From positions 1 to 45,901 of the forward strand of contig JANYKG010000175.1 of NCBI GenBank assembly GCA_025358205.1: a stretch of DNA of 45,901 nucleotides, in the 5' to 3' direction. The notes under the pieces were generated by a model, which saw only the letters and a program-made list of their open reading frames with translations, did not search any database and had not been told where the DNA came from. Shown here one piece after another: positions 1,851 to 28,909 of this stretch. Made by a program: the position numbers and the translations under genes. Each line of letters starts with the position of its first letter. The stretch's first letter is position 1. The stretch is from Armatimonadota bacterium (GTDB lineage: Bacteria; Armatimonadota; UBA5829; DTJY01).

Positions 1851-3872
1851 TCACTTCCCCGATCGGGTCTTCTTGATGTGATCGAGCGTGAAGGCAAGCA
1901 CGGGATCATCAGCCTTCTGGTAGGCTCGGAGCAGCTTGTCGGTCATGGGGATATCCGGGAGGATTCCGTGCTCGTCATCCCCCGGTCGGGGCTTGGGGCA
2001 AACAAACTGCTTCCAAGACACGTTGCATCGAATCCCGCTGCTCTTCAGTTCAAATGGGTACAGATCGCCAAAGCTGTTGGGAACCCCACCCGTCTCGTAA
2101 CCCAGAATCCTCCCGACACGATAGTCACGGAACATCACCGCGAAGTCCGTCGCCGATGAGAACGTTGCATTATCCACAAGCAAGAAGACCCGCCCGTGGT
2201 AGAAGGCCCTCGGTCTGGTCACCGACTTCTCTTCAATGTCTCTATCCACGATCATTCCCTCAAGATCGGCAAGCTTCTGATAGTGCGCGCCGTACTTCGA
2301 GGCGTCGCGTATGCCCATGTACTTCTCCAAGGCTCTGGGATAGGCCGTGGATACGATCTCCCGACTCAACTTCTCGCGTATTCTTGAGAATGAGGCAAAC
2401 TTCGCGTCGTACAGATAGCTGAGGATGAGTTCTCCCATATCGGAATCTCCACCACCATTGCCGCGGATGTCTATGATCAGGTCTTGCGCTCCTTTGGCCT
2501 TGATCTGCTCGAAAACATCTTTCACTCTCTTCATCTCATCCCTACTGTTGTTGAAAGCCGGATAGACGAAGTACGCGACCTTGTCTGAATCCAGGAAACG
2601 GACCTGAGCGCCCTGCGTGGCTTGCCGCCGAATCCGCTCCATCCCGCCGTCCTTGAGCTTCTCGAAATCAGAAAGGCCGACCGTTGCAACCCTCTGTGTA
2701 CTTTGTTTCCCTTGCGCGTCTCGGAGTTCGAGGCTGAGGGACTCGGCTGAACCATAGAGGTTGGAGAAGCTGTACCAGAAGGTTTGTCTGGCTGTAAAAC
2801 GCACGGATCTGAATGCAAGCGTTTCCCCTGAGCAGCGGTCCAGAATGGGGCTGAGGAATTCCCGAACAGGCTTCCCATTCACGGACAGCGCCTCCAGCCC
2901 TTCCATGCTCTTGACGCTCGATTCCACGATGACAAAGCGGCCATTATCGTAGCCAAGCAGGAAAGGAGGGAACCGCATCTCCGATTCAGTCGGCTGAAAC
3001 TGCCACTCGACTGACGTGTGGCCGTCGTGGAAGAACGCGGCGGCGTAGTAGAGTGAATAGGCCAAATCGCCAATACTGATTTTGCCTTTGTTATCGAGAT
3101 GCTTGGAGACATCGCCCAGAGTCTGGCGCTTGAGTTTGACGTAGTCCTGAACACTCACCTTCGCCAGTAGATCGGGGTGAACCCGCTGCAGAGTCGAGAA
3201 GAATTGCTGAACATCTTCGACGGCTTCGGCCTGCGTGATTCGGTCCGGCACGGTGACGAAGTCATCACTGTAATCACCTTCCTTGAGCAGCTTGTCACCC
3301 TGGAAGATGTGGTATGAATGCAGTCCGTGGAAGAGGTTGTTTATGTCCACCAACGACCGATTGGAGCCGGCAGCGTACACGACGCAGTTACCTTTCCCAT
3401 AGGGGTTCTTGCCTACCAGGATGATTCGAGTCGCGCTAACCGGAGCTTTCACGCCGTTCCAGTGAAGAGCGCCTCCATCAACAGGTATGTGCAGAGGCTG
3501 AGTTGCGGCGATGAACAACCTGGACCCGATGGTTGTATAGAGGAGGAAGTCCCCCTTGAGCGCACCGAACTTGTTCTTAAGCGCGGAGTCATCAAGATTC
3601 GTGGCATCTATTACTTCGAGCTTGACATGGAGCTTGCTGCGATACAGGCCTTGTACCTTCTCAACATAGCGGACTGCGTTAGCGCGGCCCTCGTCGTTGG
3701 GAAATTCGTAGACTAGGGTTCGGGAATCCATGCACGAGTTGTTGATCATCAAGTCGTTTTGGCCGGACGGAAACTGAGAACTTGGAGTCTTCCACACGTT
3801 ATCGTGTAGAAACTGCGCGACAAACGCGAGCAGCAGAACGGAAACAGAAACGATAAGCCCCTTCTTTGCCAT
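1851..3872 (-). CDS. S41-family peptidase (tail-specific protease-like), copy 1
   Basis: A 673-residue membrane-anchored or secreted protein. Residues 5-22 are an N-terminal hydrophobic segment. Residues about 40-210 form a domain I do not recognise, with LMINNSCMDSRTLVYEFPND near its start. An S41-like part follows: FFSTLQRVHPDLL (about 224-236), FFHDGHTSVEW (His285), DLIIDIRGNGGGDSDMGE, and a serine motif LLVDNATFSSATDFAVMF (Ser572/573). The Lys of Ctp-type enzymes, expected about 25 residues later, is replaced by a GYETGGVPNSFGD loop, as in the tricorn/IRBP-like S41 branch that uses His rather than Lys. The ATG at 3872 is chosen because GGGGAGGA lies just upstream; an in-frame GTG seven codons earlier has no SD. 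A close paralogue lies at 5702-7729. Confidence 0.85.
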   Translation of the reverse strand: MAKKGLIVSVSVLLLAFVAQFLHDNVWKTPSSQFPSGQNDLMINNSCMDSRTLVYEFPNDEGRANAVRYVEKVQGLYRSKLHVKLEVIDATNLDDSALKNKFGALKGDFLLYTTIGSRLFIAATQPLHIPVDGGALHWNGVKAPVSATRIILVGKNPYGKGNCVVYAAGSNRSLVDINNLFHGLHSYHIFQGDKLLKEGDYSDDFVTVPDRITQAEAVEDVQQFFSTLQRVHPDLLAKVSVQDYVKLKRQTLGDVSKHLDNKGKISIGDLAYSLYYAAAFFHDGHTSVEWQFQPTESEMRFPPFLLGYDNGRFVIVESSVKSMEGLEALSVNGKPVREFLSPILDRCSGETLAFRSVRFTARQTFWYSFSNLYGSAESLSLELRDAQGKQSTQRVATVGLSDFEKLKDGGMERIRRQATQGAQVRFLDSDKVAYFVYPAFNNSRDEMKRVKDVFEQIKAKGAQDLIIDIRGNGGGDSDMGELILSYLYDAKFASFSRIREKLSREIVSTAYPRALEKYMGIRDASKYGAHYQKLADLEGMIVDRDIEEKSVTRPRAFYHGRVFLLVDNATFSSATDFAVMFRDYRVGRILGYETGGVPNSFGDLYPFELKSSGIRCNVSWKQFVCPKPRPGDDEHGILPDIPMTDKLLRAYQKADDPVLAFTLDHIKKTRSGK

Positions 3873-4007
3873 CGGGTCCTCCCCTGTCGTCACCTCAGAT
3901 TGCTCTCACATGAAGGCAGACGCTATGAGAGGTGTAAAGGTTGAACAGAATCCCAGGCGGCTACGCCGGTTCAGCCAGATGACTGATACTGGAGCTCGAC
4001 AAAGAAA

Positions 4008-5701: not shown

Positions 5702-7729
5702 TTACTTCTCGGAAGGCTTCTGGCGTGTTTTCTTCATGTGATCGAGCGTGAAGGCAAGCACCGGGTCGGCTTCCTTCTGGTAGGCCCGAAGCAACTCGAC
5801 GCTCATGGGTACGTCCGGGAGGACGCCGTGCATGTCATCACCAGGCCTGGGTTTTGGGCAGATGAACTGCTTCCAAGACACGTTGCATCGAATCCCGCTG
5901 TTCTTCAGTTCAAATGGGTACAGATCGCCAAAGCTGTTGGGAACCCCACCCGTCTCGTAACCCAGAATCCTCCCGACACGATAGTCACGGAACATCACAG
6001 CGAAGTCTGTCGCCGATGAGAATGTGGCATTATCCACAAGCAAGAAGACCCGCCCGTGGTAGAAGGCCCTCGGTTTGGTCGCCGACTTCTCCACCATGTC
6101 TCTATCCACGATCACTCCCTCGAGATCCGCAAGCTTCTGATAATACACGAAGTACTTCGAGGCGTCGCGTACGCCCATGTACTTCTCCAAGGCTTTGGGG
6201 TAGGCCGTGGATACGATCTCCCGACTCAGCTTCTCGCGTATTCTTGAGAATGGGGCAAACTTCTCGCCGTACAAATAGCTGAGGATGAGTTCTCCCATGC
6301 TGGAGTCTCCGCCTCCATTGCCGCGGATGTCTATGATAAGGTCTTGCGATCCCTTGGCCTTGACCTGCTCGAAAACATCTTTCACTCTCTTCATCTCATC
6401 CCTGCTGTTGTTGAAAGCCGGATAGACGAAGTACGCGATCTTGTCTGAATCCAGGAAACGGACCTGAGCGCCCTGTGTGGCTTGCCGCCGAATCCGCTCC
6501 ATCCTGCTGTCCTTAAGCTTTTGGAAATCCGAAAGACTCACCGTTTCAATCTTCCGCGCGCTTTGTTTCCCTTGAGCGTCTCGAAGTTCGAGGCTGAGGG
6601 ACTCGGCTGAACCACAGAGGTTGGAGAAGCTGTACCAGAAAGTTTGTTTGCTGGTAAAGCGCACGGTCTTGAATGCAAGCGTCTCGCCGGAGCAGCGGTC
6701 CAGAATGGGGCTGAGGAATTCCCGAACAGGCTTTCCATTCACGGACAGCACTTCCAGCCCTTCCAGGTTCTTGACGCTCGATGTCACAATGACAATGCGG
6801 CCATTATCGTAGCCAAGCAGGAATGGAGGAAACCGCATCTTCGATTCAGTCGGCTGAAACTGCCACTCAACTGACGTGTGGCCGTCGTGGAAGAACGCGG
6901 CGGCGTAGTAGAGTGAATAGGCCAAATCGCCAACACTGATTTTGCCTTTGCTATCGAGATGCTTGGAGATATCGCCCAGAGTCTGGCGCTTAAGCTTGAT
7001 GTAGTCCTCGACCTTCACTTTGGACAGGAGATCGGGGTGAACTCTCTGCAGAGTCGAGAAGAACTGGTTCACGTCCGCCACCGCCTCCGCCTTCGAGATG
7101 CTGTCTGTGCCGACAACGAAGTCCTTGTTGTAGTCGCCCGCCTTCAGCAGTTTGTCGCCCTGAGAGATGCGATATGAGCACCGCCCGTCACCTTTCATTA
7201 TGCCGGCTAGCAGGCGATTGGAACCTGCGGCATGCACAACGCAGTGTCCATCGCCATAGGGATTCTTGCCGACCAGGACAAGTCGAAGATCACTGACCGG
7301 AGCCTTCACGCCATTCCAGTGAAGCGCGCCTCCATCAATGGGTATGTGCAGAGGCTGCGTTGTGGCGTTGAACAACCTGGATCCGATGGTTGTGTAAAGG
7401 GCGAAGTCACCCCTGAGCGCACTCAGTTTGTTTTTCAGCGTGGAGTCATCCAGCTTCGTTGCATCTATTACTTCGACCTTGATATGAAGCTTGCTGAGAA
7501 AATTGTCGCGCGCTTTTTCGATGCGGCGAACCTCCTCGGCACGTCCCTCGTCGTTGGGTAGCTCATAGATAAGTGTTCGGGTATCCATGTACGACTTGCT
7601 GATCATCAAGTCGTTTTGGCCGGACGGAAACTGAGAACCAAGAATGTTCCCCAGGTTATCGTGAAGAAACAGCGCGACCAAGGCGAGAAACAGAACGGAT
7701 ACAGAAACGATAATCACTTTCTTTGCCAT
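5702..7729 (-). CDS. S41-family peptidase (tail-specific protease-like), copy 2
   Basis: A 675-residue paralogue of the protein at 1851-3872, alike in every domain: N-terminal anchor (MAKKVIIVSVSVLFLALVAL), the unassigned 40-210 domain, the FFHDGHTSVEW His, IIDIRGNGGGDSSMGE, and a LLVDNATFSSATDFA serine motif (about Ser571/572). The peptidase half is nearly identical to copy 1, with DNA blocks of about 100 bases unchanged (for example 2041-2140 against 5901-6000), whereas the N-terminal half has diverged more. That suggests gene conversion or selection on the catalytic part. The ATG at 7729 follows GGGAGGG. An upstream open frame adds 39 codons but belongs to the leader. The first 60-70 leader bases are shared with copy 1, so regulation may be shared. 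Confidence 0.85.
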   Translation of the reverse strand: MAKKVIIVSVSVLFLALVALFLHDNLGNILGSQFPSGQNDLMISKSYMDTRTLIYELPNDEGRAEEVRRIEKARDNFLSKLHIKVEVIDATKLDDSTLKNKLSALRGDFALYTTIGSRLFNATTQPLHIPIDGGALHWNGVKAPVSDLRLVLVGKNPYGDGHCVVHAAGSNRLLAGIMKGDGRCSYRISQGDKLLKAGDYNKDFVVGTDSISKAEAVADVNQFFSTLQRVHPDLLSKVKVEDYIKLKRQTLGDISKHLDSKGKISVGDLAYSLYYAAAFFHDGHTSVEWQFQPTESKMRFPPFLLGYDNGRIVIVTSSVKNLEGLEVLSVNGKPVREFLSPILDRCSGETLAFKTVRFTSKQTFWYSFSNLCGSAESLSLELRDAQGKQSARKIETVSLSDFQKLKDSRMERIRRQATQGAQVRFLDSDKIAYFVYPAFNNSRDEMKRVKDVFEQVKAKGSQDLIIDIRGNGGGDSSMGELILSYLYGEKFAPFSRIREKLSREIVSTAYPKALEKYMGVRDASKYFVYYQKLADLEGVIVDRDMVEKSATKPRAFYHGRVFLLVDNATFSSATDFAVMFRDYRVGRILGYETGGVPNSFGDLYPFELKNSGIRCNVSWKQFICPKPRPGDDMHGVLPDVPMSVELLRAYQKEADPVLAFTLDHMKKTRQKPSEK

Positions 7730-8050
7730 TAGGCCCTCCCATGTCATCATCTGAGATTGCTTCCACATGAAGGTTGACACTTTGAGAAGCATAAAGGTTG
7801 AATAGAATCCCGAATGGCTGCGAAGGTTGGATAGAATCCCAGACATCTATAGTCCGCTGAAAACAACAGAGCTGCTTCTTCGATATGGTGCTCTGTAAAT
7901 GGCTCTACGCTGATCACACCGGTCTCCTGTGTTCCCAATACATTGATCATCCCGTGCAATATCTGCTGTATTGAACAGGCGATACATTCTCATCCAACAC
8001 TCACGTCATTTTCCGTATCGTCTGGAACACGTTGCCTGCTAAAGAAACGG
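7730..8050. other. Gap without an intact gene: duplicated leader, GNAT relic, spacer
   Basis: From 7740 to about 7815 the sequence matches the leader upstream of peptidase copy 1 (3893-3955), marking the extent of the duplication. At 7805-7842 a short direct repeat (GGGATTCTATCCAACCTT and GGGATTCTATTCAACCTT on the minus strand) marks the breakpoint. A truncated acetyltransferase start follows (7849-7917). From 7918 to 8050 I see no gene. Confidence 0.5.
7849..7917 (-). pseudogene. Truncated GNAT acetyltransferase start
   Basis: A GTG at 7917 with AGGAG six bases upstream opens a frame reading M-I-S-V-E-P-F-T-E-H-H-I-E-E-A-A-L-L-F-S-A-D-Y-R. This is the usual first beta-strand and helix of GNAT-family N-acetyltransferases. 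After about 24 codons the frame runs into the duplicated peptidase leader and is no longer GNAT-like. The rest of the gene appears to have been lost when the peptidase duplicate was inserted. Family assignment rests on a short stretch. Confidence 0.4.
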
Positions 8051-22054: not shown

Positions 22055-23449
22055 ATGACTACCTGGAGTTCGCTGTGCTTGATGATTGCGCTGTGCTGTG
22101 CGGCTGCAACGGCTGCCCGTGCTGATGTGATAGGCATCGGCTCGCGGCTGGAGCCGTTTGTGGATGACTACCTCATCGAGAAGATGGACGGACTGGAACT
22201 CCAACTCCAGCATCCCATCGTCCGCGAGGAGGCCATCCGCTTCGATGCGCCGTGGGAGGGCAAGACCAGCGCCTACGTGACGATCTTCAAGGACGGCGGC
22301 AAGTACCGCATGTACTACCGTGGCTCGGACGGGGACAACGGCCTTGCGGAGGTCACCTGCACCGCCGAGAGCACGGACGGCATCCACTGGACCAGGCCGA
22401 AGCTCGGGCTGTTCGAGATCGCGGGGACGAAGGAGAACAACGTCATCTGGATGGTCAAGGGCGGTCATGCCTTCGTGCCGTTCAAGGACGCCAACCCCGC
22501 CGCCAAGCCGGGCGAGCTGTACAAGGCGGTCGCGCCGACCAGCGGCGATGCGAAGGGCGCGGCGCTTCTGCCTTACGTCTCGAGAGACGGCTACCGATGG
22601 AAGCAGCTCGGCACGGACCCGATCATCACCGACGGCAAGTTCGACTCGCAGAACGTCGCGTTCTGGGACACCGAGCGTGGGGAATACGTCTGCTACTACC
22701 GCGATTACCGAAACAGCACACGCGAGATCAAACGCGCGACTTCCAAGGACTTCATCCACTGGACGCCGGGCGAATGGGTCACCTACAACGCCGCGCCTGA
22801 GGAGTTCTACACCAACGCCATCACCCCATATTTCCGCGCGCCGCACATCTACCTCGGGTTCCCGAAGCGGTTCATGATAAAGCGGAAAGTCGTGGAATCG
22901 CATCCCTATCCCGGCGTCTCGGACGGAGTGTTCATGAGCAGCCGCGACGGCCTGGTGTTCGACAAATGGCTTGAGGCGTTCCACCGCGCGGGTCTGGATC
23001 AGGAGAACTGGACCGACCGAAACAACATGGCTGCGTGGGGCATTCTGGAGACGAAGCCTGGCGAGATATCCATCTACTATTCCCAGCGCTACCGCCACGC
23101 CACTAACGGCATGGTGCGGACGACGATACGCACGGACGGGTTTGTCTCGGTTCACGCGGGCGGCACGACGGGCGAGATGACCACCAAGCCTATCACGTTC
23201 GAGGGCAAGGAGTTGGTCATCAACTACTCAACGTCGGCGATCGGTGGGGTTCAGGTGGGGATTCAGAATTCGGATGGCACGCCGATCCCAGGGTTCGCGC
23301 TGGACGATTGCCCGGTGATCTACGGTGATCAGATCGAGCATGTGGTGAAGTGGCAGTCAAGCGATCTTTCGTCCTTGGCGGGCAAAGCGGTCCGCCTGAG
23401 GTTCAAGCTGCTGGACGCGGATTTGTACTCAATCCGATTCAGAAAGTGA
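22055..23449 (+). CDS. Secreted five-bladed beta-propeller glycosidase-like protein
   Basis: A 464-residue exported protein. The signal peptide is at about 1-24 (MTTWSSLCLMIALCCAAATAARA). The propeller resembles clan GH-J/GH-F enzymes and the sugar-hydrolase-like proteins abundant in Planctomycetota and Armatimonadota. Visible landmarks are FVDDYLIEKMDGLELQLQHP, MYYRGSDG, AESTDGIHWTRPKLGLFE, the sequence NVIWM, and DTERGEYVCYYRDYRN. The last 100 residues are a jelly-roll-like beta-sandwich (GKAVRLRFKLLDADLYSIRF). GGGAG lies 8 bases before the ATG. It is divergent from the acyl-CoA dehydrogenase and followed after 41 bases by the WG-repeat gene on the same strand. Confidence 0.75.
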   Translation: MTTWSSLCLMIALCCAAATAARADVIGIGSRLEPFVDDYLIEKMDGLELQLQHPIVREEAIRFDAPWEGKTSAYVTIFKDGGKYRMYYRGSDGDNGLAEVTCTAESTDGIHWTRPKLGLFEIAGTKENNVIWMVKGGHAFVPFKDANPAAKPGELYKAVAPTSGDAKGAALLPYVSRDGYRWKQLGTDPIITDGKFDSQNVAFWDTERGEYVCYYRDYRNSTREIKRATSKDFIHWTPGEWVTYNAAPEEFYTNAITPYFRAPHIYLGFPKRFMIKRKVVESHPYPGVSDGVFMSSRDGLVFDKWLEAFHRAGLDQENWTDRNNMAAWGILETKPGEISIYYSQRYRHATNGMVRTTIRTDGFVSVHAGGTTGEMTTKPITFEGKELVINYSTSAIGGVQVGIQNSDGTPIPGFALDDCPVIYGDQIEHVVKWQSSDLSSLAGKAVRLRFKLLDADLYSIRFRK

Positions 23450-23490
23450 GTTGTAGTTTATCTGCCGACCTACACGGAGGAAACAATCTC

Positions 23491-26400
23491 ATGAAAATGA
23501 TGAAAACACTTGGAGTGATAACGGCGCTGCTCATGTCGCTCGGCGGTGCATACGGGGCCGTCAAACCTGTAAAACCGGTTGGGAAGCCTGCGCCCAAACC
23601 GGTCAAACCGTCCGTGGTCGCGCCTCAGAAACCCTCCGCGCTGTTTCCTGCGTCCGAAGACCTGAGATCGGGGTTCATAGACAAGACCGGCAAGGTGATC
23701 CTCTCCGGCTTTGAAGAGGTCGGCGATTTCAACGAGGGACTCGCACCGGTCGGCTCGAACTACCTGTACGGATTCATAGACGTGACAGGTAAGCTGGTCA
23801 TACCGATGCAGCACCACGGCGTCGTCAAGTTCTCGGAAGGACTAGCGGCTGTGTATGATGGGCACGGGCTTTGGGGCTACGTGGACAAGACCGACACTAT
23901 GGTACTCAAGCCGCAGTACCACTGGGCGAATCCGTTCAGCGAAGGACTTGCCGCAGTGCAGATTGACGGCAAGTTCGGCCTGATAGACAAGAAGGGAACC
24001 GTCGTAGTTCCACCGAGCTATGACAGCATGGGCGTGATGTCTGAGGGACTCGCGGCGGTCAAGCAGGGCGATAAGTGCGGGTTCATAGATAAGACCGGCG
24101 CAGTTGTCATCACACCTCAGTTCGACAAAGTCGGCCCATTCTCCAGCGGACTTGCACCAGCCTTGTCAGAGGGCCAGTGGGGCTTCATAGACAAGACCGG
24201 CAAGTGGGTCATCCAGCCCAAGTACGCTACCGCTGAGTCATTCAGCGAGGGACTGGCGGTGGTCGGAACTCCCACGCGGGAGATGCTCAAGAACGAGCAG
24301 GGCCGGGTCTTCAAGATCGAGAACTACAACATCCTCGGCTACATAGATACCACCGGCAAGGAGGTCATCCCGCTTATCTACCGGAGTGCCGGCTCGTTCA
24401 CCGAGGGGCTGGCTCCTGTCCGCAACAAGGATGGTTTCGCGTTCATAGACAAGACCGGCAAGGTCGCGCTCTCATCACCTTTCGGGCAGAGCACCGGTAG
24501 TTTTCACAACGGTTTGGCGCGCACCGAGTTCGGCCAAAGGTACGGCTACATAAATGAAACCGGCAAGATGGTTATTCCCGAGCAGTTCACGGAAGCGCAG
24601 GCGTTCAGCGAGGGCCTGGCCGCGGTGGAGTATAGCAAGTACGGCCCCTACGGCTACATTGATGCGTCTGGCCGTACAGTCGTCAAGCCGCAGTTCACCA
24701 TGGCTCTCGATTTCTACAAGGGGCTGGCGCGCGTCCGTGGCGAGCTGAATTGGGGGATTATAGACAAGACCGGTAAGGTCGTGCTTGACCAGCGGTTCGG
24801 CGAGATCGGCTGGATTACGGACAAGGTCATCGCGGTGCAGCCTCCATTCGCAACGGCCAAACCCCTCTGGGGATTCTATGATCGGTCGGGCCAGCCGATT
24901 CTGGACTGCCAGTTCCAGAGCGCAGTCTTCCTGGGCGACTCTCAGGCGGTCGTCAAGAAGGACGGCAAGTGGGGCGTGGTGGACGCCGCCGGAAAGCTGA
25001 TCGTGCCTAACGAGTATGACGATGCGGGCTGGTTGTTCTCCGAGGGACTTCTGCCGGTGAAGAAGGACGGCAAATTCGGGTTCATAGATGCAACCGGCAA
25101 GCCGGCAATCGAGCCGCAGTACGATGCGGTTGGCGGCTTCATGCCGGAGAAGCTGTGCCCCGTGAAGGTTGCAGGCAAATGGGGTTTCATAGATCCCGCG
25201 AACAAGATGGTGATCACCCCTCAGTTCGACGAGACGGTCTGCTTCTCAGAGGGACTGGCAGCAGTTCAGGTAGGAGAGCGATGGGGGTTCATAGACAAGA
25301 CCGGCAGCTACGTCGTCAAGCCGCAGTATGACCTTGCGAGCAACTTCAACTGCGGGCTGGCTGCTGTGCAGGTCGGCGAGAAGTGGGGCTACGTGGACAA
25401 GACCGGCAAGCTCGCCATCCCTGCCAAGTTCGACAGGGCGCCCGACTTCAACAACAACCTTGCGCAGGTGAGAATCGGTAACCAGAACAGCTACATCAAC
25501 ACCACCGGCAAGGCGGTCTGGTCGGAGCGGCAGTATCCGACTGAGGTGAAGAAAGGGCCTGCGCCCTCAACAGCTACAGTGCAGATTGACAGCGACGGCG
25601 TGAGGGTGGTGAGAGTGAAGGTTGCCGCAGATCAGTTGATGCAGAAGCGAACTGACTGGCAAGAAATGCTAAAGACTCGCATGCAGGCCGTCTCGGACCT
25701 TATGGAGAAGACTTTCAAGGTTAAGCTGGTGGTCACGGCGGTCGTGCCCTGGACCACACCGGAGTTCAAGGAGAAGGACGATCCCGATGTGTACGGTGAT
25801 GTCATCTACAACAAACTGGTTGCCGACGTGCCGATGGACGACTCCGAGATAGTCATCGGCTTCACCGGCCAGACGTCGCGCTCGACCACACTTGCCTTCA
25901 CCCATACCTACTTCGAGCACGTGATCGTCTACGATCCTGACAACGGCGCGGCGGAAGTGGAGCCGCGGATCGTGCGCACAATCGCTCACGAGATATGTCA
26001 CGACTTCGGGGCGTTCCACGTCAAGCCTGAGTCCTCCATCATGAACGCCATTCTCCTCAATGGGGATGAGCAGACGACTTTCGACGAGGATACCATTCAT
26101 CAGGTGGACCTGATGCATGACTACGATTTTGCGAAGGGCATGGACTCGCTGACTGAGGATAAGATCAAACAGGCTGAGGCGATCTATGCAGTTGGTCATG
26201 CACCAGATGTACCGTTCCCGGTCGCCAAGTCGCACATGTACAGAGGTATCACCAGGGTGGAAAACGGGGACATTGCGGGAGGCATTCAGGACTACCGTGA
26301 AGCCATCAGACTTGATGGGGTGTGGCTGGACTTTGCCCATGTGTACTACCTTGGAAAGATACTCCTCGGTGACGGTCAGACGGTGTTGGGCATCGAGACT

Positions 26401-26793
26401 CTGCGCATGTGTCCGCCCCTGAAGACCGATCCCGAAGAGGCGGGCATGTACCACAATTATCTGGCGACCGACCTGGCCGATCAGATGGGCAAGGATGCGG
26501 ACTTTTTGACGTGCCGCGAGCAGGCCAGGCCGAAGCTCGGGGATATCTACCAGCGGTACATGCTGACCCGGATCAGCCCCGATGAGGTGATCTCGGAATA
26601 CCGGGCGGCGATCCAGGCGCGGCCCAAGGAAGCGTCGTACCAATCCAAGCTCGGCGCGGTCCTGCTTGATTGTGGTCGGCTGGACGAGGCGCTGGCGGCG
26701 TTCCAGGAGGCGGCCAAGCTTGAGCCGGAGAACACGTACTATCAGTCCCAAGTGGAGACGGTCAAGACGCAGATGGGAGAGCAGGGGAAGTAG
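23491..26793 (+). CDS. Secreted WG-repeat / metzincin-motif / TPR protein
   Basis: A 1100-residue exported protein with an unusual architecture. Residues 1-24 are a signal peptide (MKMMKTLGVITALLMSLGG), followed by a Lys-Pro-rich linker (PVKPVGKPAPKPVKP). Residues about 55-690 hold roughly 18 WG/KWG-type repeats of about 35 residues with the core GFIDKTGKVVI.PQFD...FSEGLAAV. Residues about 730-880 carry a zincin: IAHEICHDFGAFH gives HExxHxxGxxH (His833, Glu834, His837, Gly840, His843), followed by SSIMNAIL as a Met-turn. Together these are the metzincin signature. Residues about 905-1090 are TPR-like (RVENGDIAGGIQDYREAI and LDCGRLDEALAAFQEAAKLE). GGAGG lies 10 bases before the ATG at 23491; 47 upstream codons in frame have no SD. 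It is probably a cell-surface or periplasmic protease with a repeat platform; the target is unknown. Confidence 0.88.
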   Translation: MKMMKTLGVITALLMSLGGAYGAVKPVKPVGKPAPKPVKPSVVAPQKPSALFPASEDLRSGFIDKTGKVILSGFEEVGDFNEGLAPVGSNYLYGFIDVTGKLVIPMQHHGVVKFSEGLAAVYDGHGLWGYVDKTDTMVLKPQYHWANPFSEGLAAVQIDGKFGLIDKKGTVVVPPSYDSMGVMSEGLAAVKQGDKCGFIDKTGAVVITPQFDKVGPFSSGLAPALSEGQWGFIDKTGKWVIQPKYATAESFSEGLAVVGTPTREMLKNEQGRVFKIENYNILGYIDTTGKEVIPLIYRSAGSFTEGLAPVRNKDGFAFIDKTGKVALSSPFGQSTGSFHNGLARTEFGQRYGYINETGKMVIPEQFTEAQAFSEGLAAVEYSKYGPYGYIDASGRTVVKPQFTMALDFYKGLARVRGELNWGIIDKTGKVVLDQRFGEIGWITDKVIAVQPPFATAKPLWGFYDRSGQPILDCQFQSAVFLGDSQAVVKKDGKWGVVDAAGKLIVPNEYDDAGWLFSEGLLPVKKDGKFGFIDATGKPAIEPQYDAVGGFMPEKLCPVKVAGKWGFIDPANKMVITPQFDETVCFSEGLAAVQVGERWGFIDKTGSYVVKPQYDLASNFNCGLAAVQVGEKWGYVDKTGKLAIPAKFDRAPDFNNNLAQVRIGNQNSYINTTGKAVWSERQYPTEVKKGPAPSTATVQIDSDGVRVVRVKVAADQLMQKRTDWQEMLKTRMQAVSDLMEKTFKVKLVVTAVVPWTTPEFKEKDDPDVYGDVIYNKLVADVPMDDSEIVIGFTGQTSRSTTLAFTHTYFEHVIVYDPDNGAAEVEPRIVRTIAHEICHDFGAFHVKPESSIMNAILLNGDEQTTFDEDTIHQVDLMHDYDFAKGMDSLTEDKIKQAEAIYAVGHAPDVPFPVAKSHMYRGITRVENGDIAGGIQDYREAIRLDGVWLDFAHVYYLGKILLGDGQTVLGIETLRMCPPLKTDPEEAGMYHNYLATDLADQMGKDADFLTCREQARPKLGDIYQRYMLTRISPDEVISEYRAAIQARPKEASYQSKLGAVLLDCGRLDEALAAFQEAAKLEPENTYYQSQVETVKTQMGEQGK

Positions 26794-27330: not shown

Positions 27331-28749
27331 CTAAGGCGTGCAGTCTACCGGGAACTCGGATGCACCGTAGAACGCTTCGGGGGCGTTGGCGCGGACGGCC
27401 CAGCCGCTGTCGCCGTAGGAGTAGTGCCACCACTCGTTGGAGAAGTTGCTGAACCCCGCGGCCAGCATCACGTCCACCAGCATCTGGCGGTTCTTTGCCG
27501 CGCGCGGGGTAATCAGCTTGGAGTACGTGCCAAAGGTGCGGAAATGATTGTCCAACGGCTTGACCGTGGAATTCATGTCCAACTCGCCGCCGTGCGGGCC
27601 AATGATGGTCAGGTCCACCGCACCGCCGGTGGTGTGTCCGGGCGGATGCTTGGCGTCAGGGGGCGCCAGGTACTTGTTGATCTCGCGCCGGAGCTGGCTT
27701 CGTTGCCAGTCCGGGTATTTCTCCGCAAGCTCGCCGTAGTACTTCTTGTACATCCGCTCTTGAAACTCCAGCGACCGGCAGCCCGTCCTGATGAAGAAAT
27801 GGTGCCCTTCCGGCAGCATGGCGGCGGCCTTCGCGAGCATTTCACCCACGGTCTTGCGCACAAACGTCGGCGGTTGCTTCACCTTCACGCCGGGGACGAT
27901 GTCTTCTACATTCACCAGATCTTCGCCGTTATCGTGAATCGGCACGCGGTCAAGCGCCGAGATAGGTTCGAGGATCGGCCTGCTGATCGAGTCGTCAGGT
28001 TTGCGCGCGAGCACGATCAGGTTGTCGGATTCCAGCGGATCGAACGCCTCGCCGGAGAAGCTGCCGTAGACCTCGGGGGCCTCGAAACCAACCGCTCGCA
28101 ACCGGCTGACCAGCAGATCGCGGGTGATAGCGCGGTGGGTGGAGGAGTCCGGGAACATGCTCCACGCGCCTGATTCGTTGGTTAGCGAGACCACGTTGAA
28201 GGTCAGGATGTCGCCCTGGAAATCGAAGAACCGCATGAAGAGGTGGTCTTTCCCGTTCTTGCGAGTGTGGGCCAGCGGCATGAACCGCTCTTTCCTGCCC
28301 AGCACGCGGTCATAGTTGTTGCTGTGGATGACGAGAATGCCGCCTGCGAGGAGTTGGTCGAGGAAGGCAAGCAGTGACGCATCCAGCGCCTCGTCGGTGA
28401 GCACGTGCGGCAGCGAGTTGCCTAGACACGTAACCGCGTCGAACATCCCGCCGATCTTCTCGGTGTCATCGAAACCTGCTTGAACGAAGTGTATCTTCCT
28501 GCCGTCCGCGTTCGCGCGCGATTGCTTGACCATCGCCTTGCTGAGGTCCGCGCCGGTGACGTGGTAGCCCCAGTCGTGGAAGGCCAGCGCGTGTGCGCCC
28601 GTCCCGCAGGCGGTGTCCAGAATTCGGCGAACCTTGTGCCGTTTGAACAGCGCGTTCAGGAACGGTTTCTCGCGCCGAAGCCGCCGCTTCCACGAGATGA
28701 GCAGATCATACGAACCGGCTAGATTGTCGTACAGCTCGACCTTTGACAA
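27331..28749 (-). CDS. Fusion: SAM methyltransferase plus VanX-type D-Ala-D-Ala dipeptidase
   Basis: A 472-residue protein in two parts. Residues about 1-265 are a class I methyltransferase (RILDTACGTGAHALAFHDWG at 43-62, TGADLSKAM, VTCLGNSLPHVL). Residues about 290-472 are an M15D peptidase with both zinc motifs: PGHTTGGAVDL (His372, Asp379, the SxHxxGxAxD box) and NEWWHYSYGD (Glu439, His442). VanX-type enzymes cleave D-Ala-D-Ala in peptidoglycan turnover or glycopeptide resistance. A methyltransferase half is unexpected. No vanA/vanH genes are nearby. The start is a TTG at 28749, seven bases after GGAGGA; the ATG upstream lacks an SD. Both halves look complete. Confidence 0.85.
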   Translation of the reverse strand: MSKVELYDNLAGSYDLLISWKRRLRREKPFLNALFKRHKVRRILDTACGTGAHALAFHDWGYHVTGADLSKAMVKQSRANADGRKIHFVQAGFDDTEKIGGMFDAVTCLGNSLPHVLTDEALDASLLAFLDQLLAGGILVIHSNNYDRVLGRKERFMPLAHTRKNGKDHLFMRFFDFQGDILTFNVVSLTNESGAWSMFPDSSTHRAITRDLLVSRLRAVGFEAPEVYGSFSGEAFDPLESDNLIVLARKPDDSISRPILEPISALDRVPIHDNGEDLVNVEDIVPGVKVKQPPTFVRKTVGEMLAKAAAMLPEGHHFFIRTGCRSLEFQERMYKKYYGELAEKYPDWQRSQLRREINKYLAPPDAKHPPGHTTGGAVDLTIIGPHGGELDMNSTVKPLDNHFRTFGTYSKLITPRAAKNRQMLVDVMLAAGFSNFSNEWWHYSYGDSGWAVRANAPEAFYGASEFPVDCTP

Positions 28750-28789
28750 GGCTTGCTCCTCCAAGTGCGTGGGGCGGGCGGCTGCGAAC

Positions 28790-28909
28790 ATCCAACATTC
28801 AACGCCCAACGCTCAACTTCCAACGCAGAATCCGGACAAACAACTGGCGAACCAGGAACCCCCGCCAGCCCGTCGCCCGAAACCAGGCACCCGAAACCTG
28901 GCACCTTCC
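28790..28909. other. Intergenic word-repeat spacer
   Basis: Imperfect short repeats (ACATTCAACG, CCCAACGCTCAAC, TTCCAACGC, then CCAGGCACCCGAAACCTGGCA) between the fusion gene and dapF. No start signal or gene; the last block forms a short hairpin (CCAGG, CCTGG). Confidence 0.4.

Follow-up and report, generated by a model that had tools for sequence, protein, structure and literature searches.

A single gene in a draft assembly of an Armatimonadota bacterium (GCA_025358205.1) encodes a chain in which a signal-peptide-like N-terminus, an array of 18 WG repeats, a metzincin-type catalytic domain, and a C-terminal TPR region follow one another. We analyzed this gene within contig JANYKG010000175.1, positions 1 to 45,901 (a stretch of 45,901 nucleotides, hereafter the window). 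Our preferred reading, to which we give a probability of about 0.62, is that the protein is an exported zinc endopeptidase with a TPR docking tail and with a WG binding arm carried on a flexible hinge.

One open reading frame joins WG repeats, a metzincin-type domain, and TPRs

The open reading frame at window positions 23491-26793 (plus strand) translates into 1,100 amino acids with zero internal stops. The coordinates, frame, and motifs in the initial annotation proved exact, including HEICHDFGAFH at residues 833-843 and SSIMN at residues 848-852. The features are as follows.

23476..23480, plus strand: Shine-Dalgarno-like GGAGG, 10 nt 5' of the ATG at 23491; identified by sequence, with a putative functional role
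23491..26793, plus strand: whole open reading frame (signal peptide, WG array, metzincin, TPR; 1,100 aa)
23491..23556, plus strand: signal-peptide-like N-terminus, residues 1-22, MKMMKTLGVITALLMSLGGAYG/A
23557..23661, plus strand: Lys/Pro-rich linker, residues 23-57, predicted disordered
23662..25530, plus strand: WG repeats, 18 of about 34 aa, residues 58-680 (PF14903, repeat list, conservation, model)
25531..25590, plus strand: hinge between WG array and protease, residues 681-700 (pLDDT <50 at 678-688)
25591..26205, plus strand: metzincin catalytic domain, residues 701-905 (PF13688, AlphaFold, Foldseek, profile homologues)
25987..26019, plus strand: zinc motif HEICHDFGAFH, residues 833-843, with Glu834 as putative catalytic base
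26032..26046, plus strand: Met-turn SSIMN, residues 848-852, with Met851
26206..26790, plus strand: C-terminal helical/TPR region, residues 906-1100, clearest TPRs at 1036-1081 (PF07719, PF00515, helices in both models)

A longer version of the open reading frame would begin at a GTG at 23350 and overlap the upstream gene. We prefer the ATG at 23491 as the true start because GGAGG lies at 23476-23480 and because the ATG opens a signal-peptide-like N-terminus. Judged from their sequence, residues 1-22 agree with the signal peptide proposed in the initial annotation: they combine a charged start, a hydrophobic core, and small residues at -1/-3, a plan that recurs in the full homologue described below. 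Residues 1-49 have pLDDT <50 in the full-length model. At the other end of the protein, the C-terminal helices, earlier described as TPR-like, match TPR_2 at 36.9 bits (cut-off, 27) and appear as helices in the structural models.

The gene context is ordinary. The upstream gene (22055-23449, plus strand) ends 41 bp 5' of the open reading frame, and co-transcription of the two is possible because they share a strand and are separated by so short a gap; promoter and terminator signals in this region did not exceed shuffled expectation. The neighbors comprise an S41 peptidase pair, a GH43 gene, an acyl-CoA dehydrogenase, a methyltransferase/M15 open reading frame, a DAP epimerase, and a branched-chain amino-acid transporter. 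Two of these deserve separate mention. The open reading frame at 27331-28809 (minus strand) holds methyltransferase and peptidase M15 (D-Ala-D-Ala dipeptidase) domains together, an unusual pairing, and the neighboring S41 peptidases at 1851-3893 and 5702-7846 (both minus strand) are possibly tandem paralogues.

The catalytic domain has a predicted metzincin-type fold

Residues 833-843 conform to the metzincin motif HExxHxxGxx(H/D), and shuffling the protein 20,000 times did not produce HExxHxxGxxH once. The motif is followed by a conserved Met-turn methionine, Met851, which lies 8 residues after His843, the same step as in matrixins. Pfam assigns residues 705-843 to Reprolysin_5 (PF13688, M12), though marginally (28.2 bits versus a cut-off of 27), and the corresponding score in the full homologue, 22.9 bits, falls below the cut-off. 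An AlphaFold model of residues 686-1100, built from a domain alignment of 64 sequences, has a mean pLDDT of 84.5, with most of the catalytic part above 90. The modeled domain shows the metzincin strand-helix order, with a mainly parallel sheet, a backing helix, an active-site helix that bears the first two His residues, and a small C-terminal subdomain. When this model was compared with the PDB by Foldseek, ADAM-8 was the best match (E 2.1e-6, TM 0.68 on target), followed by snake-venom metalloproteinases/adamalysins and ADAMTS4, so that the fold prediction and search suggested in the initial annotation returned a confident domain resembling ADAM/adamalysin metzincins. The motif, Met-turn spacing, Pfam match, predicted fold, and ligand conservation (below) agree, and together they support the earlier call of a genuine metzincin-type domain. 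From the conserved residues and the predicted fold, we infer that His833, His837, and His843 would hold a zinc ion, with Glu834 as the base and Met851 beneath the metal, and that the domain would be proteolytic.

The domain resembles several known metzincin families without carrying the signature residues of any. Reprolysin_5 (M12-like) is the sole curated peptidase family above cut-off, but the window protein lacks an Asp after the third His and lacks the ADAM disulfide pattern. ADAM/adamalysin proteases (M12B) are marked by that Asp and by a disulfide-bonded C-terminal subdomain; here His843 is followed by Val844, and the domain contains one Cys (836). Matrixins (M10) share the spacing from third His to Met-turn and an Asp close to where the last helix begins, but the window protein has Val after the third His rather than Ser/Thr, Peptidase_M10 scores 14.6 bits (cut-off, 24), and the cysteine switch PRCG[VN] is absent. 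Among PDB entries, the family profile matches archaemetzincins (M54) best (2x7m, 3zvs; E 2.2e-6), and it also matches fragilysin and MMPs; in archaemetzincins, too, the Met lies 8 residues after the third His. Archaemetzincins are defined by four Cys in HEXXHXXGXXHCX4CXMX17CXXC (PMC3427221); the window protein has Val844 where the first Cys is expected, no Cys between 836 and 974, and CxxC nowhere. Because the archaemetzincin, matrixin, and ADAM residues are absent and the PF13688 match is marginal, we place the protein in an unnamed PF13688-related family, with the WG array as an extension.

A metzincin-TPR family occurs in several phyla and mostly keeps its active site

Profile searches recovered the domain in 15 of 291 Armatimonadota genomes (three weak matches), 9 of 392 Planctomycetota genomes (two weak), and 23 of 237 Omnitrophota genomes. 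Its frequency across these three sampled phyla is thus about 2-10% of genomes, and it is mostly single-copy where present. A scan of our collection with the pattern HE[ILM][CGA]HxFGA[FLV] found 73 loci, extending the range to Aminicenantes, Acidobacteriota, KSB1, and Binatia (one locus, L144, was left out because it is clipped at a contig end). The usual architecture is signal peptide, metzincin, and TPR; WG repeats are not part of it, most members lack a prodomain, and at most loci little or nothing separates the signal peptide from the catalytic domain. TPRs are fused in about 45 of 66 members and WG repeats in 2 of 66, namely, the window protein and its full homologue. At E <= 0.001, 54 of the 66 match PF13688. 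Other N-terminal parts in Armatimonadota members include TPR segments and segments that we read from the sequence as STN-like, a name that Pfam did not give. Those members checked against NCBIfam models match weakly, and the window protein falls far below every cut-off among the matches listed. From these sequence comparisons, we describe metzincin-TPR proteins as a widespread, uncharacterized, unnamed bacterial family related to PF13688.

The WG-less members have neighbors of their own. In Aminicenantes and Acidobacteriota, the metzincin-TPR gene adjoins an AcrB-type RND pump (L062, L069, L070, L073, L076, L078, L080, L084, L086, L093, L102, L112, and L116), a conserved link of the family with tripartite efflux. 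At L062:2-7932, three same-strand open reading frames, including an HlyD-type adaptor and ending with the RND pump, precede the metzincin gene, with a gap of about 40 bp between pump and metzincin. A gene for a ZIP-family zinc transporter lies directly downstream of the metzincin gene, on the opposite strand, at L078:7998-8834 (minus strand) and at eight more loci in this group.

Because the scan pattern imposes the His and Glu residues by construction, their presence in the 73 loci was excluded as evidence, and conservation was judged instead from the profile-based searches. Positions outside the pattern are informative in the 73 loci: His serves as the third ligand in 63 of them and Asp in the other 10, and the Met-turn Met occurs at the same place in 64. 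The initial annotation had held that homologues lacking the Glu or His residues would count against a protease. Of the 33 members from the profile search, 31 retain the zinc ligands and Glu (14/15 in Armatimonadota, 6/7 among new Planctomycetota with two weak matches left out, and 11/11 of the aligned Omnitrophota), a result that favors the protease apart from two minority exceptions. Loss takes two forms in the family: in G248, every zinc ligand is gone (RAIGQLFGAAC), and in L133/L138, Ser replaces Glu (HSFGH). The G248 protein (L040:4164-6350), which has a long TPR tail, and L138:2512-5313 (genome G465) are likely inactive relatives. Since two relatives have lost catalytic residues, the family appears to tolerate inactive members.

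These exceptions bear on whether the window protein could be a nonproteolytic scaffold, in which a metzincin fold persists because it binds metal or protein and is combined with two platforms of repeats. The two family members without catalytic residues lend this idea some weight, and so do the archaemetzincins, which match the family profile closely: they were inactive toward many substrates on which they were tried, and in the bacterial homologue CarG the position of the catalytic Glu is changed (PMC3427221). However, the window protein itself keeps the ligands, Glu, and Met, and because ligands and Glu persist in so large a share of the profile-found members, we regard scaffold-only use as unlikely. 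The reading as an active zinc endopeptidase remains the one that we prefer.

The WG fusion occurs in two Armatimonadota lineages

The full homologue, 1,098 aa with the same WG-metzincin-TPR layout (L012:7306-10602, the same as L044:3904-7197), lies on contig JAUSGG010000050.1 of Armatimonadota bacterium isolate E14_metabat.bin.108 (genome G017), from another family of the same class. Overall identity between the two proteins is about 60% (WG, 61%; protease, 55%; TPR, 60%), and each of the three parts has a dN/dS of about 0.2 to 0.27, with dS close to saturation. We considered whether faulty assembly or binning could have joined the WG array to the protease, or whether the HExxH motif could have arisen by chance. 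The window does come from a draft assembly of 200 contigs, but GC3 is equal across the join, that is, in the protease and WG parts alike, the shuffles described above speak against chance, and the independent assembly carries the same join in the same place. Because of this second occurrence, an assembly artefact is effectively refuted, and we give the explanation as a whole next to no credence.

The protease is absent from four genomes of the window's own family, so its distribution is patchy. In the tree, the two fusion proteins group together (100/99) and adjoin a WG-less Armatimonadota pair (94/88, below the star threshold); the grouping is consistent with one gain of the WG array. Within the genomes sampled, one fusion lineage is shown, a small one in which the array joined an existing metzincin-TPR core. 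The two fusion loci share no neighbors except the gene itself, and a tblastn search of 72,556 plasmid records for plasmid spread gave no match.

The WG array was complete before the two lineages diverged

WG_beta_rep (PF14903) matches the array in 16 stretches at 537.5 bits (E 1.1e-165; cut-off, 25.6). We delimited 18 repeats by hand in the window protein, in line with the number first estimated, and an HMM built from its own repeats finds 18 in the homologue. The initial annotation had also described a near-invariant FIDKTG core and attributed it to recent internal duplication. Within one protein, however, repeats are on average only 30% identical (maximum, 56%), whereas repeats at the same position in the two proteins average 59% (including one indel-misregistered repeat at 6%), and for 15 of the 18 repeats the best match in the homologue is the repeat of the same number. 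Because same-position repeats are far more alike than repeats within a protein, the array was complete before the two lineages split; recent duplication is ruled out by this comparison. The FIDKTG core recurs because it is constrained, and not because the repeats were copied recently.

The full-length model (whole pTM 0.42) shows an all-beta array to which each unit contributes three strands, with pLDDT of about 60 to 94. Most of the best Foldseek matches of this model are propeller-containing proteins, and because their TM scores are about 0.2 or below, we left the fold of the array unassigned. Sequence search found no solved PDB relative of WG repeats, and literature searches found WG repeats in passing mentions only. 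The same genome encodes a second exported-looking protein (G000:C92, L002:334-2382), of 682 aa, which consists of WG repeats alone. Its repeats are of the same kind and 42-49% identical to those of the window array; like other free WG proteins (PF14903), it differs in having neither protease nor TPRs.

A model for the WG-linked protease

We propose that the protein is exported by Sec, as its signal peptide suggests; this signal peptide is the one feature seen that bears on the surface location first suggested. The ancestral core would be the protease with its C-terminal TPR tail, a probable docking site for substrates or partner proteins. In the ancestor of the two Armatimonadota lineages, the 18-repeat array would then have been placed between signal peptide and protease, where its most likely role is that of an extended arm for binding, one that would position the protease at a target in the envelope or outside the cell.

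The position of the array could also suggest an inhibitory prosegment, with the full-length protein latent until the array is cleaved or binds a ligand. The array lies N-terminal to the catalytic domain, the usual place of a metzincin prodomain, and the hinge looks cleavable. Mep72 of Pseudomonas aeruginosa, a secreted metzincin with binding modules whose processing frees the protease (PMC4334185), offers a precedent; compared by description, it resembles the window protein in its appended modules but has carbohydrate-binding modules where the window protein has WG and TPR. However, in most relatives the signal peptide leads straight into the catalytic domain, the cysteine-switch motif is missing, and at pTM 0.42 the full-length model gives no confident WG-protease contact, with linker residues 678-688 at pLDDT <50. 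The auto-regulation by the array that was first suggested thus finds no support here, and a prosegment strikes us as improbable. From the predicted disorder of the hinge and the absence of a prodomain in most relatives, we infer that the array is a placing arm rather than a blocking segment, and the other option put forward at the outset, a protease presented by the WG array, is plausible.

WG repeats are widely annotated and have no known ligand. It is possible, though we hold this only tentatively, that WG arrays in general are targeting or docking arms, wired in this case to the exported protease of an undescribed metzincin-TPR family that spans several little-studied phyla. An enzyme fused to WG repeats offers an assayable handle on the WG ligand; if the docking-arm reading is true, WG repeats would gain a catalytic partner through which that ligand could be found.
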